In this document: positions 18,124 through 37,548 of the stretch, one piece after another
Position numbering within the stretch: position 1 is the first letter of the stretch
Layout of the letters: the number at the start of each line of letters is the position of its first letter
Assembly (NCBI GenBank): GCA_903857865.1
Contig: CAIOGO010000021.1
Span: 15,810-79,809, forward strand
DNA: 64,000 nt
Direction: 5' to 3'
Origin: an uncultured bacterium
Lineage (GTDB): Bacteria > Bipolaricaulota > Bipolaricaulia > UBA7950 > UBA9294
Notes under the pieces: generated by a model
Told to the model about the DNA's origin: nothing
Database searches by the model: none
Seen by the model: the letters and a program-made list of their open reading frames with translations, nothing else
Program-made: the position numbers and the translations under genes

Positions 18124-18125
18124 CG

Positions 18126-18154
18126 TTGCAGCGTCCAGGTCGTTCGGCTAGCAT
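18126..18154 (+). promoter_or_regulatory. Probable sigma-70-type promoter of acs
   Basis: TTGCAG at 18126-18131 and TAGCAT at 18149-18154 are separated by 17 nt. A 5' leader of about 35 nt to the GTG at 18194 contains the strong AGGAGG binding site. Confidence 0.6.
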
Positions 18155-18193
18155 CAAACTCACTTTTCACACCGTGCAACAGGAGGTCCAAAC

Positions 18194-20152: not shown

Positions 20153-20192
20153 GAAGGACCGTGCCAGCAAGCGGCATAAGACAAAGCAACGA

Positions 20193-20220
20193 AGGGGCGG
20201 CGCGGCCGCCCCTCTCTCTT
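20193..20220 (+). terminator. GC-rich hairpin after acs
   Basis: AGGGGCGGC at 20193-20201 pairs perfectly with GCCGCCCCT at 20205-20213 across a GCG loop, followed by CTCTCTT. The tail is pyrimidine-rich but not a true U-run, so this may be a weak terminator or attenuator between acs and the transporter gene. Confidence 0.45.
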
Positions 20221-20231
20221 CGGGGGAGGGG

Positions 20232-21515: not shown

Positions 21516-21537
21516 AGACGACGATTCGATCTGACGA

Positions 21538-21577
21538 GGCGGGGCTGCTCGCACGTTGAGCGGCCCCGCTTTCTGTT
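21538..21577 (+). terminator. Rho-independent terminator after the OFA transporter
   Basis: GCGGGGCTGCTC at 21539-21550 pairs with GAGCGGCCCCGC at 21558-21569 (one internal T-G pair), 7-nt loop, followed by TTTCTGTT at 21570-21577. Confidence 0.82.
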
Positions 21578-21647
21578 CACACCCGGAAGCAACCGGTCGC
21601 CCCGCAGCGACGGCGGCGGTAAGCTCTCTGCAAGCAAAGGAGGCGGC

Positions 21648-22211
21648 GTGACGCGCAGCGCGGACAACCTCATCTGGATCGACCTCGAAACGACCGGCCT
21701 TGACCCGGAGACGCGCGTCGTTCTCGAAATCGCCTGTCTGATCACCGACAAGGATCTGAACGAGCTCGGCGACGGCATCGACCTCGTCGTGCATCAGGAG
21801 GGCCACGCGATCGGCCAACTCGACCCCTGGTGCGTCAAGCAGCATGCGGCGAGCGGATTGCTTGACGCATCGCGCGCCTCAACGACGTCGCTCGCCGAGG
21901 CGGAGGCGCAGACCCTGGCCTACGTCAAGCGCCATTGCCTGTCGGGGAAGACGCCTCTCTGCGGCAACTCGGTGTGCTTCGACCGCCGCTTCCTCATCCG
22001 CCACATGCCAAAGCTCGAAGCGACCTTCCACTACCGCAACGTCGACGTGAGCTCGATCAAGGAGTTGGCTCGCCGTTGGCGGCCGGAGGTTGTCGAGAAG
22101 CAGACGAAGCTGTCGCGGCACCGCTCGCTCGACGACGTGCGCGAGTCGATCGCCGAGCTGCGCCTGTACCGCGAAGCCTTCTTCCAGGAGCCGCCGTGCG
22201 CGACGCCGTAG
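21648..22211 (+). CDS. orn: Oligoribonuclease
   Basis: 187-residue DEDDh 3'-5' exoribonuclease that degrades di- to pentaribonucleotides, including pGpG from c-di-GMP breakdown. Acidic motifs are WIDLETTGLDP near the N-terminus, GNSVCFDRRFL in the middle and the C-terminal HRSLDDVRESI with the catalytic His and Asp. The start is GTG at 21648 with AAGGAGG 5 nt upstream. The next gene starts within its last 16 nt. A c-di-GMP-making GGDEF protein is encoded elsewhere in the window. Confidence 0.95.
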   Translation: MTRSADNLIWIDLETTGLDPETRVVLEIACLITDKDLNELGDGIDLVVHQEGHAIGQLDPWCVKQHAASGLLDASRASTTSLAEAEAQTLAYVKRHCLSGKTPLCGNSVCFDRRFLIRHMPKLEATFHYRNVDVSSIKELARRWRPEVVEKQTKLSRHRSLDDVRESIAELRLYREAFFQEPPCATP

Positions 22212-23164
22212 CGTGGAGCGACATCGAGGCGGCGCAGCGGCGCATCGTCCCGTTCGCTCACCGCACGCCGATCCACACGTCGCGCTTGCTCGATGCAGCC
22301 TGCGGTGCCAGCGTCTTCCTCAAGTGCGAGAACTTCCAACGGACCGGTTCGTTCAAGTTCCGCGGAGCTACGAACGCCGTCGCAGCGCTCGACGCCGGCA
22401 CGCGCAGCCGGGGTGTGATCGCCGACTCCAGCGGCAATCATGCCCAAGCGCTCGCACTGGCCGCGTGCCTGCACCAAACCCACGCCACGCTCGTCATCCC
22501 CGAGAACGCGAACCCCGCGAAGGTCGAGGCGACGCGCGGCTACGGCGCCCACGTCGTCTTCTGCCTGCCGACGCACCAAGGCCGGCGCGACGCCGTCGAG
22601 TGCCTCGTGCGGGAGACGGGCGCCGTCTACGTCTCGCCGCACGACGACCCGCTCGTCATCGCCGGCCAGGGCACCGCGGCGTGCGAGCTTCTTGACGACG
22701 TGCCGGACCTGGACATGATCCTCGCCCCCGTCGGCGGCGGGGGGCTCTTGTCCGGCACGCTGCTCGCCACGCGGCACATGGCCCCGAAAGTGAGGGTCGT
22801 CGGCTGCGAGCCGGCCGGAGCCGATGACGCTGCGCGTTCGCTCAGAACGGGCGAGCGGATCACCAACTTCGTCCCGCGCACGATGGCCGACGGCCTGCGC
22901 ACGCCGCTCGGCGAACTCGCGTTCGACATCCTGCGAAAGGCTCACCTGGATGACATCGTCCTCGTGAATGAGGACGAGATCCTGACCGCCATGCGCTTCA
23001 TCTGGGAGCGCGCCAAGCTCGTTATCGAACCCTCGGCCGCCGTCGCCCTAGCGCCGCTTCTCTTCGGGAAGCTCAACATCGCCGGCCAGCGCGTCGGCGT
23101 CATCGTCTCCGGCGGCAACGTCGACCTCGAGCCGCTCTTCACAACGCTGAAAGGAGCACCATGA
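22196..23164 (+). CDS. Threonine/serine dehydratase family, PLP-dependent
   Basis: 322-residue fold-type II PLP enzyme. The cofactor lysine is K54 in GSFKFRGAT, SSGNHAQALA is the substrate loop, and VGGGGLLSG binds the PLP phosphate. No C-terminal ACT regulatory domain is present, so it resembles catabolic threonine dehydratase or serine racemase rather than biosynthetic IlvA. The GTG start at 22196 lies inside the end of orn with CCAGGAG upstream; the longer open frame to 21935 is antisense-like overlap with orn. It is followed by a coupled DUF3795 gene (ATGA). Confidence 0.88.
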   Translation: MRDAVAWSDIEAAQRRIVPFAHRTPIHTSRLLDAACGASVFLKCENFQRTGSFKFRGATNAVAALDAGTRSRGVIADSSGNHAQALALAACLHQTHATLVIPENANPAKVEATRGYGAHVVFCLPTHQGRRDAVECLVRETGAVYVSPHDDPLVIAGQGTAACELLDDVPDLDMILAPVGGGGLLSGTLLATRHMAPKVRVVGCEPAGADDAARSLRTGERITNFVPRTMADGLRTPLGELAFDILRKAHLDDIVLVNEDEILTAMRFIWERAKLVIEPSAAVALAPLLFGKLNIAGQRVGVIVSGGNVDLEPLFTTLKGAP

Positions 23165-23619
23165 CTCAAGCAAGACTCGACGCGTATTGCGGCCTCTACT
23201 GTGGAGCCTGTCTGATCTACCGCTGCACCCAAGACGGCAACCTTGCCACCGCGGCCGCAACGCTCGGCCGGCCGGAGGAAGGCCTCGCCTGCGATGGGTG
23301 CCGCTCAAGCAGAGTGACGCTCGCCTGCCGCGACTGCTGGTATCGCGACTGTCCAGCCAAGAAAGGCTACACGTCCTGCGCCGAGTGCCCCGAGATGCCG
23401 TGCGATTCGCTCAAGAGCCTTCAGACACGTCGGCCCCACCTCGTCGAGATCGTCGACAACTTGGAGCGGATCCGCGCCGACGGCCACGCCCGTTGGTGCG
23501 CCGACCAGGCCAAGCGCTGGACGTGCCCGTCGTGCGGCAAGGCCACATGGTGGTACGAGTCGAAGTGCAGCGCGTGCGGTGCGGCGGTCCCGACGGGGTA
23601 CAGGATGCAGGCGCAGTAG
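23161..23619 (+). CDS. DUF3795 cysteine-rich protein
   Basis: 152-residue protein with about 17 cysteines. The N-terminal CGLYCGAC pattern and the spaced pairs CDGC, CRDCWYRDC and CAECPEMPC match DUF3795; a C-terminal zinc-ribbon-like CPSC...CSAC pair follows. Metal binding is likely, but no function is known. The start overlaps the dehydratase stop (ATGA), indicating coupling. It marks the last gene before the less GC-rich accessory island. Confidence 0.85.
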   Translation: MTQARLDAYCGLYCGACLIYRCTQDGNLATAAATLGRPEEGLACDGCRSSRVTLACRDCWYRDCPAKKGYTSCAECPEMPCDSLKSLQTRRPHLVEIVDNLERIRADGHARWCADQAKRWTCPSCGKATWWYESKCSACGAAVPTGYRMQAQ

Positions 23620-23711
23620 CACGAGTCTGAAAGAGGACTTCGGCAGAGTCACAGGGAGCCGCATAGATCCGGCAAGCGTCAACGCCGGGTGCGTTATCCA
23701 AACCCGCCGGC

Positions 23712-23929
23712 CTACTTGAGGTCGTCCGACAGCCGGCCTGTGCGCTTAGCGATGCGCGCCAACATCCGTGGGCCGATCTCGTCTGGGTCTCGAAACGCGA
23801 ACGTGTAGTCGGCCAGCCTGGGGGGGAGAGAACGCGATGAGAGCCCCTAACCTCGCGCTTGATGGACCGACCTCTTCGGAGGAGTGCCGCGAGAACTTGG
23901 CGAGCCTTCGTTGACGGCCACTGGCTCAT
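23712..23929 (-). pseudogene. hicA: HicA mRNA interferase toxin gene with a one-base frameshift
   Basis: The ATG at 23929 overlaps the hicB stop as ATGA. The first about 39 codons read as HicA (MSQWPSTKARQVLAALL, then GSHRVL...PGW, with the catalytic His in GSHR). After the tryptophan the frame is lost, but one frame over the sequence continues as a normal HicA tail (DYTFAFRDPDEIGPRMLARI, then AKRTGRLSDDLK and stop). The span of 218 nt is one base short of 73 codons. The break is just after a run of seven C (plus-strand G at 23820-23826). Either the toxin is inactivated or the base call is wrong. Confidence 0.85.
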
Positions 23930-24126
23930 GCGTGGACAGCAAAGAGGTCGTCCAACTCAGGCACAGATTCGCCGTGATCGAGACGGTCGGCGATAACGCG
24001 GAGAGCTAGAGCCTCTGCCTTCGAAATGGCTTGTGGGCGACTCTCCCCGTAGACCATCACGCCCGGCAGATCCGGCACCTCGGCAATCCACCGGCCGTCC
24101 TCTTCCTGCTCAATCTCGATCCGCAT
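23926..24126 (-). CDS. hicB: HicB-family antitoxin
   Basis: 66-residue HicB-like antitoxin, normally binding HicA and repressing the operon. The degraded RNase H-like core is visible: EEDGRWIAEVPDLPGVMVYG, then a helix with SKAEALALRVIADRL. There is no C-terminal DNA-binding domain of the long HicB type. The ATG at 24126 has GGAGGTTGG upstream; the longer frame to 24369 has no similarity. The order hicB-hicA with overlap is common in this variant. It is intact although its toxin partner is frameshifted. Confidence 0.85.
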   Translation of the reverse strand: MRIEIEQEEDGRWIAEVPDLPGVMVYGESRPQAISKAEALALRVIADRLDHGESVPELDDLFAVHA

Positions 24127-24387
24127 CTTGCCAACCTCCAACCCGCACGGTAGCAGAACGAGAGCAGGCCGAGCAAGACTGCGCCGCGAATGGGACAGGC
24201 GCAGTGCCCGCACGATCCCGCCGTGAGAGTGGCAGCCTGTCAGGCGGATCGTTCTTCTAGGTGCCGGTCCGCCGGAGTGAACGGAGAACGGCAAGAGCCA
24301 ACCCCGGCGCCGGGAGTGGTTTCGGCCAGGTCTGCACTGCCAAGCTCTCCCCGGGGTGCTCCACTGCAAGATCAGACCCCACGGCCC

Positions 24388-25008
24388 CTAGCTGCTTACT
24401 TGGCCTAGTGGCTTAGGGCACGACAGCTGACCGGCGATACTTGACAACTCCTTGAGTACGTCAGCCATGTCATCGTAGGTCAGCAAAGCAGAATCGGCCT
24501 GGAGACCGTCGTTAGTGAGCCAGACGGGCATTGTTGCGTCCGGGGGTAGTTGACCTGCAGCAATCGCCTTGTCAGCGTGTTTCGAGCGGCCGTAGATTAG
24601 GTTCAGGCGATCAAGTACTGAACCGTCGCGATTCTCGAAGAGATCTTCGCCGGTCCATTTTCGGATGACTTCAAGTGCCTGATACGATTGCGCGACGAAC
24701 GATTCGAAGTGGAAGACGGCCCGGAGGTAGAGCGTGATCGCGCCTCGGCCACCGGATACGTACTGCTGGAGGGCGATACGCGCGTTCTCATGCTCGACGA
24801 ATGCCATCTCAGCCCGACGGAGGAGTACGAAAGTGTATGCGCGATACGGCGCTTGAACGTCAACGCGGAGCATTGAGTTCAGCACGAAGTTGGCAACCCA
24901 ATCCTCACACTGATCGTCGAAGCCAGTCATGTCAATTGCGTTGCACTCTGTGAGTTTCGAGAGATCTGGGGCTACGTACTTGTCCAGTGCCCAGTTCGTC
25001 AGAGGCAT
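24388..25008 (-). CDS. Unrecognised 206-residue island protein
   Basis: Not recognised. Mostly alpha-helical, soluble, without signal peptide. Notable segments are FVLLRRAEMAFVEHENARIA, AVFHFESFVAQSYQALEVI and RLNLIYGRSKHADKAI; the last pattern, an Arg close to a His at a helix start, is vaguely reminiscent of HEPN-like proteins, but this is only an impression. The ATG at 25008 has GGGAGAG upstream. Its third positions are visibly less GC-biased than those of the flanking housekeeping genes, consistent with transfer. It reads in the same direction as the restriction gene pair. Confidence 0.6.
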   Translation of the reverse strand: MPLTNWALDKYVAPDLSKLTECNAIDMTGFDDQCEDWVANFVLNSMLRVDVQAPYRAYTFVLLRRAEMAFVEHENARIALQQYVSGGRGAITLYLRAVFHFESFVAQSYQALEVIRKWTGEDLFENRDGSVLDRLNLIYGRSKHADKAIAAGQLPPDATMPVWLTNDGLQADSALLTYDDMADVLKELSSIAGQLSCPKPLGQVSS

Positions 25009-25127
25009 AGTCTCTCCCAGCACCTTCCGCGGTTCAGTGTTCCTTACGAGACTGCGCGAACGGAATCCGCGCCATTTCCCCGGCATTTCTCTTCATCTAC
25101 AACAGGAGCTACTACCCGCCGACAGCA

Positions 25128-26159
25128 TCATGGCTGGCTTTTCGAGTGTTCTCCAAGTTGCTTGTCGAGTTCGACAGCAACTTCGGAAGGATCCAGGTCT
25201 GCGGGTATGGCGATCACACAGGGTGCGAGGTCAAGCTGCGATCTCGTGAACACTCCCTGGATCTGACTCAGCTCATCCCATGAAATCAAGTATGCGCTCG
25301 CCCGTGCTTCACTACGAGACACGACAGTGACCTGCACGTCAAAAACCGTGTCCTGCTTGGGGAACTTCGCGGCTATGTCGACCCGTATTCTGGGAAGGTC
25401 GAGTTTGATCGGGTCTGCGTCTAGGACACAAAGCTGGACTTCGAGGCGCTGTGGTGGGAGCTGACCGAGCGTTTCCAGGCCATGAAGGTGAGTCAGCTCG
25501 TCGAGAGCTCGTCGGAGACACTTCTCTTCGAAAGCATCCATTGTCCAGATTCCTTGCAGATAGCGGAGTATGGAGACGAATATGACCGTGAGGTTGCGGC
25601 GGTCCGCTTCCGTGATCAGAACGGTAGGGCCGATTACTCCACGCTTCGTGCTCGATACCTCGAGCGTGCCGCTTGCTGATGTGAAACGCCGATCGTGAAT
25701 GATGGTGCCGCGCAGCGGTTCGAGCTGCTCATACAGGCCACATAGCCTTTCGCGAAGCCACGGCCGCGCCTCTATCAGACGCGGAAACTGGAGAGGCCCC
25801 TTGAGTGCGTCGATCTTCTCCGCAAACGTGTACGCCTTACGCGTTGGAGCGACACCGTTTTCGACCAACACCCACTCGATCAGCATGTCGAGGATCTTGA
25901 ACGCTGTGACGAACACGAGTGGTGCACCGACCTTGAGGAACCCGCCGCGCCAGTCGCCGACTGTAATGCTCGATGAGGCGTACTTCAGTGTCTTTGGCGA
26001 CGCGCCGCTCGGGGGATAGATGAACTCATCTGGGTCGCTGGCGGCAATTCGGCGCTCGGCAATCTCGTACACAGCTTCAAGAAGCCACGTCTCGTACTCA
26101 GTGTGCTCCTCCAACGCTGCGAGTGAGCCGGCCCCGTACAGGCTGGAGAGTCGTGTCAT
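25128..26159 (-). CDS. Unrecognised 343-residue protein coupled to the MmeI-like gene
   Basis: Not recognised as a named family. The start overlaps the stop of the restriction-methyltransferase gene as ATGA, so it is almost certainly translated with it. Residues about 1-210 are helical and contain PLRGTIIHDRRF, which fits an R-x4-H HEPN-type RNase motif; a beta-rich C-terminal part (about 225-343: VQLCVLDADPIKLDLPRIRVD) follows. A HEPN toxin, an accessory specificity factor, or an immunity protein are all possible. Longer in-frame sequence upstream is antisense-free overlap with the restriction gene and is not used. Confidence 0.65.
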   Translation of the reverse strand: MTRLSSLYGAGSLAALEEHTEYETWLLEAVYEIAERRIAASDPDEFIYPPSGASPKTLKYASSSITVGDWRGGFLKVGAPLVFVTAFKILDMLIEWVLVENGVAPTRKAYTFAEKIDALKGPLQFPRLIEARPWLRERLCGLYEQLEPLRGTIIHDRRFTSASGTLEVSSTKRGVIGPTVLITEADRRNLTVIFVSILRYLQGIWTMDAFEEKCLRRALDELTHLHGLETLGQLPPQRLEVQLCVLDADPIKLDLPRIRVDIAAKFPKQDTVFDVQVTVVSRSEARASAYLISWDELSQIQGVFTRSQLDLAPCVIAIPADLDPSEVAVELDKQLGEHSKSQP

Positions 26160-29110
26160 CGTGTCACCGCGCTCTGATCTGATTTGAATCGCGTACCGGC
26201 TCGCTCGAGGTTCAAGGCCAGCAGCCATTCGAGGATCTGGTCGTCGGCGAGGTCGTGAGGCCAGGCGTAGGCGTCGAGGACGGCTTCGTCGAGCGTCCTG
26301 TGGGCGAGGTCGAGCCAGGTGGGGCGCTGGTTGTAGAGGTTGGTGAGCGTGCGCTTGGCGAGCTTCTTGGCACACTCGTCGTCCTGCGCTGCGACCCGCG
26401 TGTAACGCACTACTCCAATCTGAAGGCCTCCGCGCGCCTCCACGGTCTCAGGGGCGATGAACTGGCCCCAGGGACCGTCAGGCCTACCGCCGAACTCCAG
26501 GACCTCGGTTCTTGTCCACTCTGGAGGATTCAGCCAGCCCTCCCGCAGATCGTTGAGTTCCCGTGCCGCTTGTGCGATCGGATCCCTGTGAGCGGTGGTT
26601 AGTTCGGGAAAGGGAAAAGTCTCGAAGCAGGTTGTAGGCGTGTAGCGAAAGCCGCTCTCCTTCTCGCGAAGCTGCGTTCCCTGCGCAAGCGCCCACGCTT
26701 CGTGAACCCGAGAGTGCAGAACCCCGAAGATGTAGTCGTCGCCGGTCCCGAAGGCGACGAGCTGATGGTCCGGCAGCGTTGGATGCGATGCCCAGGCGAA
26801 GACGCGGTGCTTCGCCACGGTGGGAGTAACAAGGAACCGAGGCGCCACAGCGATGCTCTTGCGCATCTCCGCACAGGGTTCGGCGTGCAGCCACCAAGTC
26901 TCGCGATACTTCTTGCGTTTGACCGTTGCTCGGTCTGGGTAGACGCGTTCCTCGACGAGACGATACGGAGCTTCGTACAACGCCGCTTCTTCGCGGCTTG
27001 TGCGAACGCCGAAGTCAATGATCCAGATGTTGCGCGGCCTTCGGAGGACGTCGAGGGAGTTGATCCATGGGACGATCACGTCGCTGTTCGGGGCACCATG
27101 GGGATTTGGCATTGCCAAGAGTTCGAGCACTTCCTGTTCCTCAACGTCGAAGCGTCCGGCCTTGACGTCCGCGATGAACCCGCGGTCCACGTTCTCACGG
27201 AGTCTGGCAGCCTTTGTGATGTCGGCCAGAGCGCTCAGGTTTGGGTTGACCGTGACAACGGCCCGACCATCGAGTTCACGGGACGTCTCCGTGCCGCCGT
27301 CGAAACCCACCATGCTCACGTGCACGTTCGCACCATCGAGAATCCAGCCCCGATCGGACTGAGCCCAGAAGATGTCGCCGGAGGCCTTGATCCGCTTCAG
27401 CACTTCGCGGTTCAGGCCGCCTCGGATGCCTTGGGTGGCAAGCAGGCCTGCGCGGTGGAGCTTGCCGCCCTCAATCATCGCCCGCGCTTTCTCGAACCAG
27501 TAGCAGCAGAGGTCGCTGAAGTTGGGGATTCGTGAGCCGTAGAGTGCGAAGAGATTCTCCACGTACGGGTCGCCCAACTCGGAGCGCAACTTCTTGGTGC
27601 CCAGAAACGGCGGATTCCCGATGACGACGGTCGCCGCGGGCCACTCGGGCTCGACGGCGTTTCCGTCTGCGTCGAAGGCGAGGATCGCATCCTTGTGCTC
27701 GATGTTGTCGAGCTTCTTCAGCAGCGGCTCGGCCGGCCAGCCAAAGCCGTTTTCGTGCAGCCACTGGATATAGCCGATCCACACGGTCGCCTGGGCCAGC
27801 TCGTGGGCATACTCGTTGATCTCGATCCCGTAGAGCTGCCGCGGATCCGCGGTGGGTATCGAGAGAGGGAAGCCGAGGCTCGTCGAGAGCGTGATGACTT
27901 CCTTCTCGAGATTCAAGAGCTCGCGCATCGCAACATAGAGGAAATTGCCGCTGCCGCAGGCGGGATCGAGGACCTTCGTGTCGGCGATCTCGTCGGCGAA
28001 GCCGTGCAACAGCTTCTGCAGACGGGTGCGCAACCTTGCCTTGGCGCCACCGGCCGACGGCGTGGCGCGCCACTCGGCGGCGACTTTCTCGACTTCCTTC
28101 CTGACTTCCTCCCAGCGGCGGCGCAGCGGGCGCATGAGGACCGGCTCGACGATGAGGAGGATGTCCTCGCGGCTCGTGTAGTGGGCGCCGATCTGCGACC
28201 GCTTGCTCGGGTCAAGGCCGCGCTCGAACAGCGTGCCGAGGATCGACGGCTCGATGCTCGACCAATCGAGTTGCGACACGCGATGGAGGATCCGCAGATC
28301 GTCGTGCGAGAGGTCAAGCACGGTGTCGTCGTCGAACAGGCCGCCGTTGAAGTGCGGGATGCGGTCGAGGCCGAAGTAGCCGCCTTTCGCCATGTGGCCA
28401 AACAGTGCCTTGAGCTGGCGGCCGAACGTGGCCGGGTCGTCCCTCGTCTCGGCGACGAGGCGCGACACGAGCTTCTCGGGCAGAAGCTTGATGTCTTCGG
28501 CGAAGAGAGAGAAGAGGATGCGGATGAGAAAGTGGGCTGCCTCTTCCGAATCGTGGCCGCGGTCGCGGAGCGATTGGGCGAGATGGACGAACTCTGCCGC
28601 TGCCTTCTTCGTGACGCCCTCGCGTGTCTCGTCGGCCCGCAGCCTCTCCGGCTCGTTGAAGACCGCTCGCAGCACGGCTTGGCCCGCTTCGGTCGTGAGA
28701 TCGTCGAAGCCGATGCGAATCTCGCGCTTCACGGCATTGTTGAAGTTCGTGTGGACGACGATCGTCTCCATGTCGGAGACGACGAGAAGCGGCGGGTTCA
28801 GCAGGGCATCGCAGTACCTCAAGAGCTGCGCGTAGGCAGCGTCGAGGTCCTTGTGCTTGCCCTTGTACTCCCAGGCGAAGAAACCCTTCTTCCAGACGTC
28901 GGCCCACCCTTGGCCGCCCGTCGACTTGTCGGCGCCCTTCTCGAACGTGAACCACGTGCCTTCGCTGTCCGCCTGGGCCGGAGTCTCGTGCCCCAGCATG
29001 CGGCAGAGGTCGATGAAGTGCTCTTGGGAGGCCGAGCGCTCCTTGAGCGTGGAGGCGCGCCACTTGGCGACGAACTCCTGCGGCGTCATCGTTGGCCTTT
29101 TCGTCGACAT
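26156..29110 (-). CDS. MmeI-like type IIG/IIL restriction endonuclease-methyltransferase
   Basis: 984-residue single-chain restriction-modification enzyme. The N-terminal nuclease domain has the PD-(D/E)XK pattern D71, then E81-Y-K83, the same spacing as in MmeI. A helical spacer follows (GAHYTSREDI at 309-317), then the gamma-class N6-adenine methyltransferase with the SAM motif DPACGSGNFL (382-391) and catalytic NPPF (499-502). The target recognition region and C-terminal helical domain complete the family layout. Such enzymes methylate one strand and cut about 20 bases away. The ATG at 29110 has GAGGGGG nearby; another ATG at 29089 is possible. It is coupled to the next gene downstream. 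Confidence 0.92.
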   Translation of the reverse strand: MSTKRPTMTPQEFVAKWRASTLKERSASQEHFIDLCRMLGHETPAQADSEGTWFTFEKGADKSTGGQGWADVWKKGFFAWEYKGKHKDLDAAYAQLLRYCDALLNPPLLVVSDMETIVVHTNFNNAVKREIRIGFDDLTTEAGQAVLRAVFNEPERLRADETREGVTKKAAAEFVHLAQSLRDRGHDSEEAAHFLIRILFSLFAEDIKLLPEKLVSRLVAETRDDPATFGRQLKALFGHMAKGGYFGLDRIPHFNGGLFDDDTVLDLSHDDLRILHRVSQLDWSSIEPSILGTLFERGLDPSKRSQIGAHYTSREDILLIVEPVLMRPLRRRWEEVRKEVEKVAAEWRATPSAGGAKARLRTRLQKLLHGFADEIADTKVLDPACGSGNFLYVAMRELLNLEKEVITLSTSLGFPLSIPTADPRQLYGIEINEYAHELAQATVWIGYIQWLHENGFGWPAEPLLKKLDNIEHKDAILAFDADGNAVEPEWPAATVVIGNPPFLGTKKLRSELGDPYVENLFALYGSRIPNFSDLCCYWFEKARAMIEGGKLHRAGLLATQGIRGGLNREVLKRIKASGDIFWAQSDRGWILDGANVHVSMVGFDGGTETSRELDGRAVVTVNPNLSALADITKAARLRENVDRGFIADVKAGRFDVEEQEVLELLAMPNPHGAPNSDVIVPWINSLDVLRRPRNIWIIDFGVRTSREEAALYEAPYRLVEERVYPDRATVKRKKYRETWWLHAEPCAEMRKSIAVAPRFLVTPTVAKHRVFAWASHPTLPDHQLVAFGTGDDYIFGVLHSRVHEAWALAQGTQLREKESGFRYTPTTCFETFPFPELTTAHRDPIAQAARELNDLREGWLNPPEWTRTEVLEFGGRPDGPWGQFIAPETVEARGGLQIGVVRYTRVAAQDDECAKKLAKRTLTNLYNQRPTWLDLAHRTLDEAVLDAYAWPHDLADDQILEWLLALNLERAGTRFKSDQSAVTR

Positions 29111-29320
29111 GTCCCCCTCAGCGCCTCTCGTGGGATTGAGGCAGTTGAGTCTCATTCTAGGGAGCAGCATCGTACGCAGCAAACTCGTGCCATCCACCTC
29201 AGGCCTCTCGCCACAACGGCAAGGCACATGCCCTACGGCTGCGCCTCTCCCCGGCCGCCCGTGGTACACTTCGCCAAGGTCCGAGCCAGTCGGCGAGGGC
29301 AGTGCGTCACGAAAGGCGGA

Positions 29321-30595
29321 ATGACAGACAAGACGAATAGTGAAAGCACCCACGCGGGCGTGCCCGCGTTGCTGAGCGAGTTCACGTCGCTGTGGTGGGA
29401 AGGCGATTCGTCGTTCCCCGATCTAGGCCCGCTCGTCTCGCATGCCGAGCGGCGGGAGAACGAACGCAGGCTGGCGTGCGTCGTCGATCAGGCGCTGGCG
29501 GAGATCAAGCATCCGCCGACGGATCCTGAGGCGCGCAAGCTCTCCGAGCAGCGGCTGGCTCTGGCCGGACGCGAGTTCGTCAAGGCAACGCTCGGGCTCG
29601 ACGACGTTCACCTCGACACGCTCCAGCACGGCGGATTCATCGAGTGCGGGCGCGAGTTCGCGCGCCTGGTCCACGAATTCGATCCGACGGTGTCGCGCGA
29701 AGACACGTTCCAGGCGAGCCGCAACGTGTGGACGATGAACGGGGTCCAGCGGATGCTGGGCCTGCCGGTACGGATGACGCCATCGGTGTTCGCCTACAGC
29801 CTCCTCTACCCGTACACCGACAATGCGCTCGATCAACCCGATGTATTCGAGGAAGCGAAGCTGCGCGCGAACGAGCGGTTCGGTCGGCGCCTGGAGGGCG
29901 AGAAGCTGCTGCCTGAGGCAAGCGACGAGGAGAAGCTCTTCCGACTGCTCGAGAAGATCGAGACGGAGTATTCGCGCGACGTGGCCCCGCAGGTGTACGA
30001 GAGCCTGTACGCAATTCACGCCGCCCAAGCCCGAAGCGTTCGGCTCATGCGTCGCGACGAGCCGCCGTACGGCGTCGACGTGCTCGGGATCGCCCTCGAG
30101 AAGGGCGGCGCGTCGGTGTTGGCGGACGGGTACTTGGTCGCGGGATCGCTCACTCTCTCTCAGGCGCGGCTCTTGTTCGGGCTCGGTGCCCTGTTGCAGC
30201 TCGGCGACGACCTACAGGACGTCGAGGACGATCGCGCGAAGGGCCTGGCAACGATCTTCTCGCAGACGGCGAAGCGCTGGCCGCTCGATCGGCTGACGAA
30301 TCGCCTCTTCCACTTCCGCGAGCGCGTCCTCGAGCATCTCGCGTGCCTCGACGCGCCGGAGGCGGCACCGCTGGCCGACCTGATGCGCAAAGCGACATTC
30401 CACCTCATCCTTGACGCGGCCGGGAGCACTCCGCGTCTCTATTCTGGCGCGTACATCAAGGCGCTCGAAGTGCACTCGCCGTTCCGCTTCCGCGAGCTGG
30501 CTCGTCAACGGCGGCGGCTCGAACGCGAGCGCACGTCGGCGTTCGCGCTGCTCGCGACGGCGATGTCCGCCGGGACTCCCACGTCTTCAACCTAG
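29321..30595 (+). CDS. Class 1 isoprenoid biosynthesis-fold enzyme
   Basis: 424-residue, all-helical protein resembling trans-isoprenyl diphosphate synthases. Two aspartate-rich segments are seen: DNALD within YPYTDNALDQP (about residues 166-177) and GDDLQDVEDDRAKG (about 295-308), the latter close to the second DDxxD of the fold. The first motif is weaker than in true prenyl synthases, so the reaction (prenyl transfer or terpene chemistry) is uncertain. The ATG at 29321 has AAAGGCGGA upstream; the huge open frame before it is antisense to the restriction gene. Its codon use looks like the core genome, unlike the genes around it. Confidence 0.75.
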   Translation: MTDKTNSESTHAGVPALLSEFTSLWWEGDSSFPDLGPLVSHAERRENERRLACVVDQALAEIKHPPTDPEARKLSEQRLALAGREFVKATLGLDDVHLDTLQHGGFIECGREFARLVHEFDPTVSREDTFQASRNVWTMNGVQRMLGLPVRMTPSVFAYSLLYPYTDNALDQPDVFEEAKLRANERFGRRLEGEKLLPEASDEEKLFRLLEKIETEYSRDVAPQVYESLYAIHAAQARSVRLMRRDEPPYGVDVLGIALEKGGASVLADGYLVAGSLTLSQARLLFGLGALLQLGDDLQDVEDDRAKGLATIFSQTAKRWPLDRLTNRLFHFRERVLEHLACLDAPEAAPLADLMRKATFHLILDAAGSTPRLYSGAYIKALEVHSPFRFRELARQRRRLERERTSAFALLATAMSAGTPTSST

Positions 30596-30678
30596 CGCGC
30601 CGGAGTCTCAGTTGTCACGCCGCCCTCCCACAAGTACGCTGGCCACTAGCTGCCACTAGGCAGCCACGGGGGTGGAAC

Positions 30679-31467
30679 GTGTTCAGACGCATCGGGAGGA
30701 AGCATGCGCGCATCATCGGGAACGCGCTTGTCGTCGTCGCCGTCGTCATTGCGCTCAAGGCCGCTGCCCACGCGCTCGGCTGGGAGGCGCTGTCGCTCAA
30801 CCCGCTTCTGTCCGGCATCGTGGCTGCCGACGTCTTCCTGATGGGCTTCCTTCTAAGCGGCGTGTTGGCCGACTTCAAGGAAAGCGAGAAGCTGCCGGGC
30901 GAGGTGGCGGCGTCGCTCGAGATCCTGTTCGACGAAGCCACGAGCATGGCCCGACGGGCGAGTGATGCCACGTCGACATCCGCCGCGGGCGCCGTCACCG
31001 CCGGCGTGCGCGACCTCGCGATGTCCCTCCACGACTGGTTCTACAAGAAACAGCGCACGTCGGAGTTGATGAACGCGCTCGGCGACCTCAGCCCGCGCCT
31101 CCTCGCGCTCGAGTCGCCAGCACAGGCGGCGTCGATCGCTCGCATCAAGCAGGAGCAGCACGCGCTTCGCCGCGCGCTCGTCCGCATCCACACGATCCGC
31201 GAGACGTCGTTCATCTCGTCCGGCTACTTGATCGCCGAGCTCACGACCGGACTCCTGTCGCTGGCGCTCATCCTGTCGAAGATCGAGCCATTCTACGAAT
31301 CGCTGTTCATCGTCGGCGTGATCGTCTTCCTGCTCGCCTTCCTCCTCCTGCTGATCGGTGACCTCGACAACCCATTCGGGTACTACGAGAAGCATTCGTC
31401 CGAAGAGGTCTCGCTCAAGCCGCTCGAGGACGCGATCGCGCGGATGGGCGCGAGTCCGGAGAAGTAG
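30679..31467 (+). CDS. Four-segment membrane protein, DUF4239/bestrophin-like
   Basis: 262-residue protein with hydrophobic segments near residues 13-30, 42-62, 180-200 and 210-230, the two pairs separated by a long charged cytoplasmic helical stretch. The layout, including a helix pair at each end, resembles bestrophin-like DUF4239 proteins, but identification by eye is weak. The GTG start at 30679 follows GGGGGTGGAAC. It is 83 bp after the isoprenoid-type gene and may share its transcript. Confidence 0.6.
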   Translation: MFRRIGRKHARIIGNALVVVAVVIALKAAAHALGWEALSLNPLLSGIVAADVFLMGFLLSGVLADFKESEKLPGEVAASLEILFDEATSMARRASDATSTSAAGAVTAGVRDLAMSLHDWFYKKQRTSELMNALGDLSPRLLALESPAQAASIARIKQEQHALRRALVRIHTIRETSFISSGYLIAELTTGLLSLALILSKIEPFYESLFIVGVIVFLLAFLLLLIGDLDNPFGYYEKHSSEEVSLKPLEDAIARMGASPEK

Positions 31468-31954
31468 GACGCGTCGCGTCACTGGCCTTGCGTGGAGTGG
31501 CTGGCCTCGACCGGCCACATGGACGAGCACGAGCAGGCTCTGGTCCCACAGGCTCACGTTCAGGGCTGAGAACGTCAAGAGGCGAGACGCGACCCCGTCG
31601 CCGCAACGGCAGAGTAGCCAGTAGGGCGACCTGGGCACGCCCACCGCATGTGCAGACGTGCAAGCCAGAGTCGGCGAGAACGTCAAGCAGGACCGATGTG
31701 ACACCGGCACCCCCGGCTGACTACCGGTTGCCTGACCCGTGAAGTGAAGACCTGCCCCCGCCGCCTGAAGTGCGTCGCCCAATCCCCTCACGTCAGGCTT
31801 CTCCATGTCCTCCACCTGGTGGTCTTGTAGTGTGGCTACTGCTATACTCCGTTTTCAGAAGCACTTGGGTATTGTGCCACGCCCAGAGTGTTCGGGACGA
31901 CGAGGGTTGCAGGTGCTCGGGCTTCTTAGTTCTGCGTGCTCCTGCGAGGTGCGC
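31468..31954. other. Intergenic gap, no gene seen
   Basis: About 490 bp without a credible coding frame between the membrane protein and the STAND gene. The only signal noted is an extended -10 element at 31840-31848. No repeat, insertion sequence end or tRNA is visible. Confidence 0.6.
31840..31848 (+). promoter_or_regulatory. Extended -10 element upstream of the STAND NTPase gene
   Basis: TGC followed by TATACT (31843-31848) is an extended -10 sequence about 107 nt before the ATG at 31955. A well-spaced -35 is not evident (TTGTAG at 31825 is too close). Confidence 0.4.
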
Positions 31955-34339
31955 ATGACTGGTAATGACGGAGGAACTTCGCAGCGCGACGAATCGAAGC
32001 TCGCGCTGTATGCAGACATACTCGCTCTGCGAGATGTTGCCGACGCCACGCGACGCGGATTCGCGTTTGAGGTCGCCGTTAGGGACGTTCTCCCGTGGGA
32101 TCACCGACCACCCTTCTCCGTGAGGACCAAGTCCGCGCAGTTTGACGCTTTTTTCGAGTGGCTTGGCCGCATCTTCTGGGTTGAGGCAAAGGCGAAGAAG
32201 ACGCCAATTAGGAGGGCGTCGCATGATTGGGAAGACTTCGCTCTGAAAGTCCGTGAGGGGAGACAGACCTGCGTGGGTCTGTTCTGCAGCTTGTACCCCG
32301 TCAACAGCGACATCGGCTCCGCGGCAGCCCAGATGAACACTGAGGGTTTCACAGTTCTGGTAGTGGCTGGTGAGGCCTGGGATGCTCTCGCAGCAGACTC
32401 ACTTCCGTTCGGAGATGTGCTTCGCTACATGATCATGCAAGCAAGGATCTCTGGGGCCGCCATGGCGCCCGCACCTACGATAGTCCGCAAGTGGACCTAC
32501 AATCGCCAGGCCGCGACGACAAAGGTCGAAAGGGCTTGCCGCGAGCTTTCAGCGGCTTTCTTGAGAAGGCACAAACACCCGAAGCACAAAGAGATCTACG
32601 TCCAAAGGGCGCTGGACGTGGCTGTCACGAGCATGGCAATGGATTTGCGACCATCGAGGCTCGAGGCTGTGCAGAGGCGCTTTCGCAAGAAGAGTGCCCA
32701 CCCAGAGTGGACGGGCCGTCGAGAATCGCCGACACAGATCTGCACACTGCGCGACGATTCCGGCTCGGGGAAGACGACGCTGTCCGTGCAGCTAGGCTTG
32801 ACCACCTCTCCCTTTTTCGGCGTCGCTCTGGAAGCTCTCCATCCGGACCTGGATCGTGCGCTTGAGGCTGCAGTCCGTTCACTTGGGCAAGACTGCGGGA
32901 TTGAGGAGCTTCGAGCATCGAATCGCCCCCTCTTGGTCGCAATTGACTCGCTCGATGAAGCGCGGCATGTTCCGGAGAAGCGAAGACAGGTCCTTGCAGC
33001 GGTCAGGCTGCTCGACGAACTGAATAGTCTGGCTGAAAGCCGCGGCCTTCTCGCATACCCGCTTGGCCTCATCTTCACCGTCCGGGAAGACTACTGGGAG
33101 CCGTGGGCAAGCCTCTTTGAGAAGAGGAAGGTTCTGACGCTGAGAAGGCGCTGTTCGCGCTTCAATGGCACGGAGATGCCAATTGCGCTTGAGAAGTATG
33201 CCTGCGCGTATGACTACACGCCAGCCGGTCCGCCAACCGAGGCAGCTTTGGCGGTTCTGTCGATCCCATTCAATCTTGATGTCTTCTCCGCCGCGAATGA
33301 CAGCATGGGGACCGTTTCTCTTGCAGACGTATTGGAGACAAACGTCCTCTCGCTCTACTTCGCTCGCAAGGAGGAGGACATTCTCCGAAGACAGCTCCGT
33401 GACTTGACGGGCGAGAGACTTATGTGGCTGGCATCGCAATTCGCCGTTGCTTGCGTCGATCGAGGTGAGAACGCACTGCCGAGGAATCTTCTCCTCGAGA
33501 TCGTTGAGGCGCTTCCCTGCTTCAAGGGCTCTGGCGAGCAAGTCCTCGTCGCAATGACGTCTGAGCAGTTGCTCAGCAGAGATGGCGGCGGCTTGCACTT
33601 CCGTTTCCGCCACACTCAGTTCCTGGAGTATCTCCTTGCATACCACATTGTCACCTCCATTGGCGAGGGCGGCGGCCTCACGGAACTGGAGGCGATCGTT
33701 GCTTCTCTCGCTTCCTCGGGGGTTGCGTCCGCCTTCCGGGTCCATGATGTCGTCCGCCATCTGTGCGACCGACGTTACCCCGAGGTCAAGGAGCTAATCG
33801 AGAATTACTACGCGCAGTGCGAGCAATACGTTGTCGCCAACCTACAACGGCTCCGCTCGCATCTGGCGAACAATGACCAGACTCCGCAGCGTGACCTAAC
33901 AATGGTACTCCAGGCGCTCGGGCCCGCCTCGGCGGATTCGGCGCTCGATGCTTTCTTCGTGATCGCTGCACAGAACAACAGACAGCCGCCTGCCCGAATA
34001 CTCGAGAGCTTCTGCATCGCATGGGAGAAGAGCCAAGGCCACCCTGACCGCTGGCGGCTTGTCGGAAAGCTGGCTGATCGCAACCTTCTCGCGTCAGACG
34101 ATGTCCTGGTGCGCCTCTTCGAGACGGGGACACAAAAAGAGTGGGAGGTCTACCTGGGCGCCGCGCTCGAGACCGATCAGACGGGCGAGATCCGGGAGCT
34201 GTGGGAGCAAGCCAGCGGAGATACGCTTGTGGCAGGACTCCGCGCCAGAATGCGGAGCCCGGGATGGGAGCAGGTTCAGTACCTGCTGACCACGTTCCGC
34301 TCAGGGGATCCATTCGTCATTGGAAGCACCTCCCTCTAG
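31955..34339 (+). CDS. STAND/NACHT-type NTPase with N-terminal PD-(D/E)XK nuclease domain (Avs-like)
   Basis: 794-residue multidomain protein. Residues about 30-150 fit a restriction-like nuclease: E39, D64 in AQFDAFF, and E77-A-K79 in FWVEAKAK. A P-loop NTPase follows with DDSGSGKTTL (267-276; the first Walker A glycine is Asp) and Walker B LLVAIDSLDE (326-335), then a sensor-like FTVREDYW and the STAND-style helical motif RHTQFLEYLLAYH (552-564). About 200 helical residues at the C-terminus may be the sensor. This order matches antiviral STAND proteins, in which ligand-triggered oligomerisation activates a nuclease. The ATG at 31955 follows GAGGTG. Lower GC at third positions suggests transfer. 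Function is inferred. Confidence 0.78.
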   Translation: MTGNDGGTSQRDESKLALYADILALRDVADATRRGFAFEVAVRDVLPWDHRPPFSVRTKSAQFDAFFEWLGRIFWVEAKAKKTPIRRASHDWEDFALKVREGRQTCVGLFCSLYPVNSDIGSAAAQMNTEGFTVLVVAGEAWDALAADSLPFGDVLRYMIMQARISGAAMAPAPTIVRKWTYNRQAATTKVERACRELSAAFLRRHKHPKHKEIYVQRALDVAVTSMAMDLRPSRLEAVQRRFRKKSAHPEWTGRRESPTQICTLRDDSGSGKTTLSVQLGLTTSPFFGVALEALHPDLDRALEAAVRSLGQDCGIEELRASNRPLLVAIDSLDEARHVPEKRRQVLAAVRLLDELNSLAESRGLLAYPLGLIFTVREDYWEPWASLFEKRKVLTLRRRCSRFNGTEMPIALEKYACAYDYTPAGPPTEAALAVLSIPFNLDVFSAANDSMGTVSLADVLETNVLSLYFARKEEDILRRQLRDLTGERLMWLASQFAVACVDRGENALPRNLLLEIVEALPCFKGSGEQVLVAMTSEQLLSRDGGGLHFRFRHTQFLEYLLAYHIVTSIGEGGGLTELEAIVASLASSGVASAFRVHDVVRHLCDRRYPEVKELIENYYAQCEQYVVANLQRLRSHLANNDQTPQRDLTMVLQALGPASADSALDAFFVIAAQNNRQPPARILESFCIAWEKSQGHPDRWRLVGKLADRNLLASDDVLVRLFETGTQKEWEVYLGAALETDQTGEIRELWEQASGDTLVAGLRARMRSPGWEQVQYLLTTFRSGDPFVIGSTSL

Positions 34340-34514
34340 GTTGTCCAGCGGGGCGTGGTGTCGACGCTTCAGGCCTCTTGAGGGATGCGTGATGAATCGA
34401 GCATGACAAGATCTCAGCGGGGGCACATCCTTTGGCACCATGTTCCCTAATGCGGCCGCTCAAGACTGAAGGAAACGGAGACGCCAAGAGAACAACACGC
34501 GACCGCGGCGCTCG

Positions 34515-36260
34515 CTACTCGCCTTCACCGTCCGATAATTCCCACCGTTCACTCGGCGACGGTTTGCTGGAGTCGACCCACTCCCTCACCTTTTGCCGCA
34601 GCTCGGCGATGGTTACATAGGACCCCTCGTGGGTCCCGCTGAGAATGGAATCTGCTGAGCCCCTCAGCCATTTCAGCTCCTCGCACGTTTCGAAGTCGCT
34701 CCGATGGAGTTCACGCACTGCGTAGTAGGGCTTGTCCGCGGCTAGTTCGCAGCCGAAGTAGTGCAACTCGAAACTGGGAACCTGGGCAACCAGGGATCGC
34801 TTTGCAGCGCCTGTGCTGGGTTGCTGGATCACCTTGGCGATCTCCTCGTTCGCCGTCCACATCCCATTGCGACGCCACTTCCCATCGCGCTGGCTCTTGG
34901 GCGCGTCAGTATCATGCACAATCGTGTACGAGCTTCCGAACTGGTTGAGGATTCGGGCGAAGAGCACAAGGTTGCTCTTGCCCATACAATTCACAATGTG
35001 CACACCCCGCGACGCATCCGCCGCGCTGCGCTGGAGTAGTTCTGAATAGACGGCCTGTTCGGTCTCGCCCTCGACGAGCCAGACTTGGTCCGCGAAGAAG
35101 AACTCCGTCACGGTGGGATGGCATGAGCGTACCATGTGAAGATTCTCCCGTTCCTCGTCTGAGAAGGCGGCTCGGTCGGTCGAGAACATCCTAGTCTGCG
35201 AAGGCCCACTGCGCGCAACCCTCACGATTGTCGTGTGCGCCTTCGATACATCGATGAAGACGGGAGAGTGCGTGGTCGCGAGCACTTGCCACTCTGAGAC
35301 CTCAGAGAGGCCATACAGGGCCTCGCGAGCCGCTCGCACAATGGGCGGGTGCAGAAACGACTCCGGCTCCTCAATCAGGAGAATCCGCTGCCGTTCAGGA
35401 GCGATGGAGGCTTTCCCGTGTTTGAGTCGTCCGAGATCTGCGAGGGTTCCGATCGCCGACCACAAGAATGTGCGCCTCACGCCAGCACCTTGCTGGGCCA
35501 GGGGCAGCAGCGGATCACCTTCGCCCTGGATCTTGATGCAGCTGCCCGCTCCGACTACCTTCTCTGGCTCGAACTTGCCCACGTCCGGGGCGAACTCGAC
35601 CCTGTAGCCAGGGAAGACCGTCGCCAGCCGGGAAGCGATTCGCGTCGTCGCATCCTTGAGTTGCACATCGATCTCTTCTGCGAGCTCATCTGTCAGTTTC
35701 TTGAGTTCCGCCCTGACTGCTGCGGCCCGTCCTTCGTCGCCCTTGAGTGTGCCTTTCACGGCAGCGGTCAGGATCTCGACGATTTGAGCCTCCGTGGTCG
35801 CGGGGTCGTCCGTCGGCCTGACCCTTAGTGGGGCAGGGATGCGGCTAACGATGAGGGTATCCCAGCCCCCAACTCCCCCTTTTCCCCACCCCTTGACCTC
35901 TGGATCCCAGGAGTACTTGGTGCCCTTCTCCTCCGGAGTAGTCCACTCCCACTTCACGCGAATGCAGTTCCCGTGGCGCGGGTCTTCGTGCTCCCACTTG
36001 GAGCCGATTGTCTGCCGATCCTCGTCTGTCAAGTCCGTGAATACGCCCTCGATGGTAATCGGGGTCGCAGTATCCTCGTTTCGGAAACGAGATCTTGGCA
36101 GGGGTGACCCGACGCTCGCAAGGGCTTCATACGCGTCGAGTATCGTGGACTTCCCGACATTGTTCGGCCCTATCAGCACGACTATTCGGTCGATCTCGAT
36201 CTCGCAGCCCTCCGCGCCAATGCATCCGAAGTTGGCCACCCGAATTGCCCCGAGTCTCAT
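34515..36260 (-). CDS. OLD-family ATP-dependent endonuclease (ABC ATPase plus TOPRIM)
   Basis: 581-residue OLD-type nuclease. The ABC-like ATPase half has Walker A GPNNVGKST (31-39), signature QQGAGVRRTF (256-265), Walker B RILLIEEPESFLHP (292-305) and H-loop TTHSP (329-333). The TOPRIM half has the catalytic Glu in LVEGETE (395-401) and DTD in HDTDAP (449-454). No UvrD-like helicase gene (Gabija GajB) or AriB-like partner lies next to it, so it is a solitary type unless it works with the convergent STAND gene 175 bp away. The ATG at 36260 (GGTGAG upstream) is preferred to a GTG at 36284. Confidence 0.9.
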   Translation of the reverse strand: MRLGAIRVANFGCIGAEGCEIEIDRIVVLIGPNNVGKSTILDAYEALASVGSPLPRSRFRNEDTATPITIEGVFTDLTDEDRQTIGSKWEHEDPRHGNCIRVKWEWTTPEEKGTKYSWDPEVKGWGKGGVGGWDTLIVSRIPAPLRVRPTDDPATTEAQIVEILTAAVKGTLKGDEGRAAAVRAELKKLTDELAEEIDVQLKDATTRIASRLATVFPGYRVEFAPDVGKFEPEKVVGAGSCIKIQGEGDPLLPLAQQGAGVRRTFLWSAIGTLADLGRLKHGKASIAPERQRILLIEEPESFLHPPIVRAAREALYGLSEVSEWQVLATTHSPVFIDVSKAHTTIVRVARSGPSQTRMFSTDRAAFSDEERENLHMVRSCHPTVTEFFFADQVWLVEGETEQAVYSELLQRSAADASRGVHIVNCMGKSNLVLFARILNQFGSSYTIVHDTDAPKSQRDGKWRRNGMWTANEEIAKVIQQPSTGAAKRSLVAQVPSFELHYFGCELAADKPYYAVRELHRSDFETCEELKWLRGSADSILSGTHEGSYVTIAELRQKVREWVDSSKPSPSERWELSDGEGE

Positions 36261-36463
36261 CGTCTCACCGCCCCCCGTCTGCACTCAGATGCAGAGCCTG
36301 GCCAAGCGAGCTGCGCCGCTCCCCAGCTTGCTTCGATTCGCGAGGCACTTCATGTCTCTACGACCGTCTTCCATGATGTTGTTCTTTCGTACATGGCATC
36401 GGGTGCTATCCTATATTCTGGCGACACTCTCTTCAACTGCGCGACTCGGCAACCTCCGCGCAC

Positions 36464-36491
36464 TTGACAGTAGCGAACTCCTTCGTAGAAT
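36464..36491 (+). promoter_or_regulatory. Promoter of the TetR operon
   Basis: Consensus TTGACA at 36464-36469 and TAGAAT at 36486-36491, 16-nt spacer. The last base of the -10 box is the first base of the palindromic operator, so repressor binding would block the polymerase. Confidence 0.8.
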
Positions 36492-36512
36492 ATGAATGAA
36501 CGTTCATTCATA
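36491..36512. promoter_or_regulatory. Perfect 22-bp palindromic TetR-type operator
   Basis: Inverted repeat with half-site TATGAATGAAC and its exact mirror GTTCATTCATA, no central spacer. It lies over the transcription start region, 12 nt before the TetR gene, and resembles the TGAATGA...TCATTCA sites of AcrR/FadR-like TetR proteins. Autorepression is the likely result. Confidence 0.85.
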
Positions 36513-36523
36513 CGGAGGCGACG

Positions 36524-37123
36524 ATGGCGAACGACCCGGCGAAGCAGGACCTGATTCGCAACGCAGCGATCCGCGTGTTCGCCCGGAAGGGCTTTCACGC
36601 GACGCGAGCGGAGGAGATTGCCGAAGAGGCCGGGATCGCTGTCGGCACGATCTACAACTACTTCGAGAGCAAGGCTCAAGTCCTGCTCTCCATTTTCGAG
36701 CGTGAGTTCGAGGAGGAAGTCGGGCTCTACGAATCGATGGCGAAGAGCGGTGTGTCGGTGCGCGAGCGCTTCAGCAAGATCCTCAGTGCGCACTTCGCAC
36801 GGCTTGCGGAGTCGCGCGACCTAGCAGTGGTCCTCGTGCGCGAGCGCTACAACGGGTCGGGCGAGATCGGCGAGGCCATGGCGAAGATGCAGCGCAAGAT
36901 GCTCGACAGGATCGAGAAGCTCATCCAGGACGGCGTGGACGCAGGATGGCTGCGCACCTGCAACGTGCGCATGGTTGCGCCGGCGCTGTTCGCCATCGTT
37001 CAGTCCATCGGCGAGGCGGCAATGATCTACCCGGAGTCCCAGCAGAAGGCATTCCTCGCCCGGGCGCCCGAGGAGCTCGCAGGCCTCATATGGAACGGGC
37101 TCGGACGCGAGGAGGCGGCATGA
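36524..37123 (+). CDS. TetR/AcrR family transcriptional regulator
   Basis: 199-residue one-domain-pair repressor. The N-terminal helix-turn-helix (about residues 10-55) is typical: AAIRVFARKGFHATRAEEIA, then AGIAVGTIYNYFESK. The C-terminal ligand-binding domain is helical, and its inducer is unknown. GGAGG precedes the ATG. It sits directly behind its presumed operator and ends in an ATGA overlap with a small exported-protein gene and the remains of an RND transporter, the usual partners of such regulators. The regulator appears intact although its target operon is broken. Confidence 0.93.
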   Translation: MANDPAKQDLIRNAAIRVFARKGFHATRAEEIAEEAGIAVGTIYNYFESKAQVLLSIFEREFEEEVGLYESMAKSGVSVRERFSKILSAHFARLAESRDLAVVLVRERYNGSGEIGEAMAKMQRKMLDRIEKLIQDGVDAGWLRTCNVRMVAPALFAIVQSIGEAAMIYPESQQKAFLARAPEELAGLIWNGLGREEAA

Positions 37124-37290
37124 CACGTCGGCTCGCAGCAGTCCTCACGGTTCTCGTCATTCTCGCTGCCGCAGCACGCACCCTGGATGCTACGCCCACG
37201 GCGCGCAGGGAGGAGACCCCTCCCGCGCAGAACCCGGGGCGGGAGGGGTCACCGCCTCCTCCGCAGCTCCCGGAGGGAGAGGAGGCGTAA
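37120..37290 (+). CDS. Short exported peptide, possible remnant of an efflux component
   Basis: 56-residue frame overlapping the TetR stop (ATGA) and the next ATG (TAATG). Residues 1-24 form a signal peptide (MTRRLAAVLTVLVILAAAAR); the rest is proline- and glutamate-rich (EETPPAQNPGREGSPPPPQL) with no domain. It may be a genuine small periplasmic protein, or the fused ends of a deleted outer-membrane or adaptor gene. Confidence 0.5.
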   Translation: MTRRLAAVLTVLVILAAAARTLDATPTARREETPPAQNPGREGSPPPPQLPEGEEA

Positions 37291-37548
37291 TGCGCCACTG
37301 GATGGATCGTCGATCACGCCTGGCTGACGCTCGCCGTCGTCGTCGCGATCACCGTCTTCTTCCTCGTCTTCATCCCGAAACTCCAGCTGCAGACCAACTT
37401 CGGCAAGTACTTGCCGGACAGTGACCGTTCGGTGCAGATGATGCGGAACGCGGAGAGGATCTTCGGCTCGCAGGAATCCTTCATGGTCCTCGTCGAGACG
37501 CCGGACACGGTCTTCACCGTCGAGACAATCGCCGACCCGATCTCGGTC
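37290..37548 (+). pseudogene. N-terminal fragment of an RND/MMPL-family transporter
   Basis: The ATG at 37290 has GGAGAGGAGG upstream, but within about six codons the reading shifts. In the next frame the sequence reads like an RND transporter start: WIVDHAWLTLAVVVAITVFF (transmembrane helix 1), FIPKLQLQTNFGKYLPDSD, then FGSQESFMVLVETPDTVFTV. The family needs some 700 or more further residues, which are absent; near 37545 the sequence switches to a different protein. A frameshift plus a large deletion make this non-functional. Confidence 0.8.

Follow-up and report, generated by a model that had tools for sequence, protein, structure and literature searches.

Why would a bacterium carry a single gene that joins a restriction-like nuclease to a STAND ATPase, and does such a protein represent a new kind of antiphage sensor? 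We analyzed a stretch of 64,000 nucleotides from an uncultured member of the Bipolaricaulota (the window), in which one intact open reading frame encodes a protein of this layout. A sequence-only reading of this DNA had recognized in it a STAND NTPase, complete in one gene, with a restriction-like nuclease as its effector. Both domains are borne out by structure models, and the gene lies in a defence setting. With a probability of roughly three in four, we consider the protein to be a one-gene antiphage sensor of the bNACHT type, in which a trigger would cause NACHT oligomerisation, DNA cleavage and abortive death. The features of the gene are listed below, with positions in the window.

31955..34339, + strand: whole gene, encoding the 794-aa nuclease-NACHT protein; intact ORF, ATG at 31955, stop ending at 34339
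32012..32452, + strand: predicted Mrr-type PD-(D/E)XK nuclease domain, residues 20–166 (hhalign and model)
32144..32191, + strand: active-site residues D64 (32144–32146), E77 (32183–32185) and K79 (32189–32191), assigned by invariance
32219..32239, + strand: SHDWEDF, residues 89–95, opening the helix that comes after the active-site strands; family-invariant
32507..34006, + strand: predicted NACHT STAND module, residues ~185–684 (structure match and profile match)
32750..32779, + strand: Walker A RDDSGSGKTT, residues 266–275, with Asp267 at the first-Gly position (alignment)
32930..32959, + strand: Walker B LLVAIDSLDE, residues 326–335; DSLDE invariant
33077..33085, + strand: TxR motif (T375, R377), past the first strand downstream of Walker B; invariant
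33602..33640, + strand: winged-helix His motif RFRHTQFLEYLLA, residues 550–562, with H553 (invariance, alignment)
34007..34336, + strand: helical C-terminal tail, residues 685–794, candidate sensor; least conserved part, helices in the model

An alternative start further upstream, at 31805, is open, yet shows no conservation. The ORF, D64, E77-x-K79, both Walker motifs and RHTQFLEYLLAYH (residues 552–564) all lie at the residues given by the sequence-only reading, and their invariance in relatives of 33–39% identity makes them more than chance.

Nuclease domain and NACHT switch

Profile comparison and modeling confirm residues ~20–166 as a predicted Mrr-type PD-(D/E)XK nuclease. In hhalign profile-profile alignment, the N-terminus matches a group of related Mrr-like domains over residues 30–158 with 98.3% probability (E 2.2e-14). 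The link to Mrr_cat (Pfam PF04471) is indirect, running through this group of eight, six of which match Mrr_cat; the window protein alone has no Pfam match. D64, E77 and K79 are invariant in 14 sequences, eight of them viral-contig relatives. Folded alone, with 14 sequences as input, the domain yields a confident model (pLDDT 87.4) whose elements run helix, strands, helix, strand, helix, strand, as in the PD-(D/E)XK core, and the features by which members of this fold are recognized, an alpha-beta-beta-beta-alpha-beta core and D...(D/E)xK, are both present. The model places E77-x-K79 on or at the end of strand 72–79; D64 lies where the hairpin before it begins. Foldseek returns weak E-values for this model (best 6.4e-3), with PD-(D/E)XK nucleases forming the majority of the leading matches. 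VIA realignment gives R.BspD6I2 (Z 11.1 over 152 residues), FokI (9.7) and AF1548 (9.3), followed at lower scores by Can2/Card1 (about 8–9), McrC (8.0) and Avs4 (7.4). By the model and these matches, residues 30–150 contain the fold that had been proposed for them.

With its N-terminal part only, the family profile retrieves Rhizobium plasmid genes, stand-alone proteins of ~300–390 aa and one reverse transcriptase fusion. The Mrr-like nucleases on Rhizobium plasmids and viral contigs (L011, L012, L031–L038) and the fusion (L022) share the nuclease domain, with its GEQIDG...EAKW core. Unlike the window protein, L011, L012 and L022 have no visible STAND module, and their nuclease is C-terminal. 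The two Rhizobium plasmid proteins with this C-terminal domain (L011:7545–8474 and L012:6231–7160) are each encoded near a repABC region, and the Lys of their ExK motif is replaced by Arg (ECRW). The L022 protein, a 535-aa ORF on the complement, is a reverse transcriptase with the Mrr-like nuclease fused at its C-terminus, apparently retron- or DRT-like.

Residues ~185–684 are likewise confirmed, by model and profile, as a predicted NACHT-clade STAND switch, the same kind of module as in human NOD-like immune receptors. The whole-protein model (pLDDT 78, pTM 0.62) was built from six sequences, and its domain placement is uncertain. Foldseek matches it to the NLRP3 NACHT (E 1e-8), Avs4 (1.5e-7), NOD2 and, at E<1e-3, AVAST5. 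VIA-align lists NLRP3 (8wsm; Z 19.9, 388 residues, rmsd 4.7), NLRC4 (4kxf; 19.6) and NOD2 (5irn; 19.1); general AAA+ proteins in the same list score Z ~11, versus 19–20 for NLRs over about 360–390 residues. A nucleotide-binding domain, helical domain 1, winged helix and helical domain 2, the parts of the NACHT module, follow one another in the NLR arrangement over residues 185–684 (Z 19–20). In profile comparison, residues 180–600 match 18 Pfam-NACHT proteins of Bacteroidota with 97.4% probability (E 1.4e-11), the aligned region extending from the P-loop as far as the winged-helix His, and five nSTAND3 proteins with 50%; since the two sets are unequal in size, this ranking of NACHT above nSTAND3 is rough. 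None of the seven family members reaches the curated cut-off of Pfam PF05729, and sub-threshold matches occur in four (best E 0.016). The question of whether the ATPase might belong to a housekeeping family is answered by structure and profile comparison alike in favor of NACHT.

The NACHT signature consists of a Walker B of the form D-[GAS]-h-D-E, in which a tiny residue after the first Asp is followed by an acidic pair, and a winged-helix FxHxxFxEYLxA. Both the Walker B DSLDE and the winged helix FRHTQFLEYLLA are NACHT-like. The segment RHTQFLEYLLAYH, previously noted as helical, is correctly placed and is more than a helix: it is the NACHT winged-helix His motif, and aligns with the same motif in Pfam-NACHT proteins. 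The Walker A reads RD-x-SG-[SA]-GKTT in seven of seven members. The replacement of its first Gly by Asp, already remarked on from the window copy, is therefore fixed throughout the family, and that copy is not simply damaged; nucleotide binding or hydrolysis could be altered or weakened by the change. Similarly, the short C-terminus of about 200 residues (590–794) is helical, as had been proposed, but part of it can be aligned to helical domain 2 of NLRs, and the distinct tail is thereby reduced to perhaps 110 residues (685–794). D598, R634, W730, W771 and G790 are invariant in the C-terminal part.

Searched on its own against Pfam, PADLOC, NCBIfam and PDB sequences, the window protein has no match above cut-off, in agreement with the earlier suggestion of an undescribed subfamily. 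We discarded three weaker matches: GlutR_dimer (Pfam, residues 607–650; sub-threshold) and a PDB match to a GGDEF protein, both of which look like chance, and a Sll1717-type ATPase match far below its own cut-off.

Known systems and proposed mechanism

Is the protein best seen as Avs-like, as the sequence-only reading had it? Avs4 (AVAST type 4; PDB 8dgf), found above among the structural matches of both the whole model and the nuclease alone, is likewise a single protein with a nuclease, a STAND module and a helical sensor. However, Avs4 has ~1,540 residues versus 794, and its sensor is large and C-terminal; its structure was solved with phage portal. The C-terminus of the window protein is short (110–200 residues) compared with the large Avs sensors that recognize terminase, portal or another phage protein. 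None of the seven members matches a PADLOC Avs model at E<=1. The protein stands nearer to the NACHT clade, and its layout of PD-(D/E)XK, NACHT and helical tail fits bNACHT25/32 (PMC12169576).

bNACHT25/32 (clade 6) protect against phage, require their nuclease and degrade DNA on triggering (PMC12169576). Compared by their published description and not by their sequences, they and the window family share a single gene, an N-terminal PD-(D/E)XK DNase, a central NACHT and a helical C-terminus; the Walker A of the window family differs in opening with Asp. The bNACHT25 NACHT His mutant H506L is hyperactive (PMC12169576), and H506 probably corresponds to the winged-helix H553, a correspondence reasoned from the motif without an alignment. 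A Pfam scan of the seven members yielded no match to an NCH-type C-terminal domain, although the library may lack an NCH1 model.

Small size had been considered notable, but Mrr_cat-nSTAND3 proteins of Bacteroidota (L090–L093) resemble the window protein in size (759–778 aa) and in the order nuclease, STAND, short tail. Their STAND part is nSTAND3, with the weaker profile match to the window family (50% versus 97% for NACHT). Size is thereby ruled out as the mark of a new type, and a short C-terminus together with small size, being common to these proteins, does not by itself imply a new trigger. The layout is already known from bNACHT25/32 and Avs4, and the kind is not new. The family is rare and unnamed; the libraries searched do not contain it and no published clade placement was obtained, so it is an undescribed subfamily.

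How might such a protein work? By analogy, we infer that an ADP-bound NACHT module would keep the resting protein inactive. The signal, coming either from the phage itself or from a host process that the phage disturbs, would act on the helical C-terminus, whereupon nucleotide exchange at the Walker A/B site would open the winged-helix latch (H553). The NACHT module would then oligomerise and so place the Mrr/FokI-like nuclease domains of the N-termini side by side. Nuclease domains of the FokI kind function as dimers. We propose that pairing through oligomerisation would thus allow DNA to be cut, and that phage and host DNA would be cleaved alike, ending the infection by abortive death; the nucleases of Avs1-4 do cleave both phage and host DNA (PMC12931631). 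More tentatively, the family may form a distinct NACHT subfamily whose minimal, cross-phylum C-terminus and altered Walker A serve to sense a cue that is conserved or comes from the host, by a mechanism different from that of the Avs proteins with their large sensors, such as the guarding of a host factor; we regard this as possible and not as the likelier outcome.

If the proposed antiphage function is correct, this is a compact, easily cloned family of nuclease-NACHT receptors in at least four phyla, overlooked by current family libraries. With its short C-terminus, it is well suited to defining the minimum that a bacterial NLR-like protein needs to detect infection, and its fixed Walker A variant is a natural experiment on the role of that Gly in STAND switches.

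Relatives and conservation

The family numbers seven proteins from four phyla, with relatives 33–39% identical to the window protein, and includes six distinct full-length proteins in all. Azospirillum lipoferum carries its relative as a lone gene on a conjugative plasmid; further relatives occur in Mucilaginibacter, Chitinophagaceae, Puteibacter and Prevotella (two genomes, same protein), and that of Acidobacteria is cut off by a contig end. Within its own phylum, the gene was found in one of 100 genomes and in none of the other 99. In samples of 395, 396 and 399 genomes of Bacteroidota and 297 of Acidobacteriota, every full-length member comes from a seed genome, and all other matches are to parts of the protein only. 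Viral contigs and phage records contained no full-length relative.

Among the six complete proteins, 111 alignment positions are invariant, including S89–F95 and H553. No variation occurs in any of the seven at Q62, D64, E77, K79, T375/R377 and P438, in the RD-x-SG-x-GKTT loop or in DSLDE. Mean pairwise identity is highest in the nuclease (50%), followed by the nucleotide-binding part (46%), the winged helix (35%) and the C-terminal tail (30%, last 100 residues). The descent from 50% through 46% to 30% is the pattern expected of an effector, a switch and a sensor.

Genomic setting and rival explanations

Window positions 17633–23568 and 36486–37535 are collinear with G070, which belongs to a genome from the same genus (blastn against L056: 2737–8658 and 11226–12281). 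Between them lies a swappable defence island that contains an MmeI-type IIG enzyme, the nuclease-NACHT gene and an OLD-like nuclease. G+C content is 62% in the island, 59% in the nuclease-NACHT gene and 65–66% in the flanks. Repeats marking an insertion site were not seen at the island ends.

23569..36485, no strand: variable island, 12.9 kb here versus 2.6 kb of other sequence in G070
26156..29110, − strand: MmeI-type IIG restriction-methylation enzyme (PADLOC REase_MTase_IIG, E 4.6e-269)
30679–31467, + strand: bestrophin-like gene (sub-threshold match), neighbor on one side of the nuclease-NACHT gene
34515..36284, − strand: OLD-like ATPase-TOPRIM nuclease, convergent neighbor (PADLOC Old, E 5.7e-76; Pfam OLD-like_TOPRIM)

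A search around the relatives for a shared operon partner found none. Because neighbors vary from relative to relative, the unit is a single gene. Most of the neighborhoods are no obvious defence islands. A Septu pair (PtuA E 5.5e-107, PtuB 9.6e-68) is found ~1.3 kb away from the L005 relative, an Mrr-like protein is encoded near the L009 relative, and the Prevotella copies (L007/L008) lie near an apparent tyrosine-type integrase gene, the latter two neighbors being inferred from sequence.

Could the protein be directed against something other than phage? Its target might be plasmids or mobile elements of another sort, or, if itself part of a mobile element, it might exclude competitors; the Azospirillum copy on a conjugative plasmid and the apparent integrase gene near the Prevotella copies are in keeping with this. 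Antiphage genes are commonly carried in this way as well, however, and the window gene has a restriction enzyme and OLD-like nuclease as neighbors, so we consider this explanation unlikely. A programmed-death or toxin-type protein that answers internal stress and not invaders would have the same architecture, which alone cannot reveal the trigger; given the patchy distribution and the defence-island neighbors, we find it highly improbable.

The antiphage role itself could also be exerted differently, with a non-hydrolysing NACHT (D267) as a passive scaffold and some other signal releasing the nuclease. The Asp at the first Walker A Gly in all members speaks for such a scaffold, but Lys273, Thr274 and D331/D334/E335 are all invariant, and selection would hardly keep these in a dead site; we judge this version very unlikely. 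A DNA-repair or housekeeping ATPase-nuclease is scarcely credible: the only point in its favor is that the protein combines an ATPase with a nuclease, and the NACHT fold and variable-island location argue against it. We rejected a housekeeping role on the distribution described above, across the phylum (one genome of 100) and the Bacteroidota and Acidobacteriota samples with full-length copies in seed genomes alone. The one-gene bNACHT-type sensor remains the reading that we prefer, although several points count against it: each member scores below the Pfam cut-off for NACHT, domain placement in the full-length model is uncertain, the Walker A Asp might impair the nucleotide site, and the relatives' neighborhoods vary and mostly do not resemble defence islands.

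Several neighboring genes are described here for their own sake. The OLD-like protein (34515–36284, − strand) has no recognized partner gene alongside it. Adjoining the MmeI-type enzyme within the island is a 343-aa ORF without family match (25128–26159, − strand), which contains an R-x4-H pattern as in HEPN RNases (RGTIIH near 25712). Downstream of it and likewise within the island, an ORF of up to 232 aa (24388–25086, − strand) has no Pfam, PADLOC or NCBIfam match. Beside the Chitinophagaceae copy (L006:12638–17471) are encoded a metallo-beta-lactamase-fold-like protein with LmuA/Avs1a-type PADLOC matches, a second gene product and a patatin-like protein; a patatin-like gene adjoins the Acidobacteria copy too (L010:3–1685).
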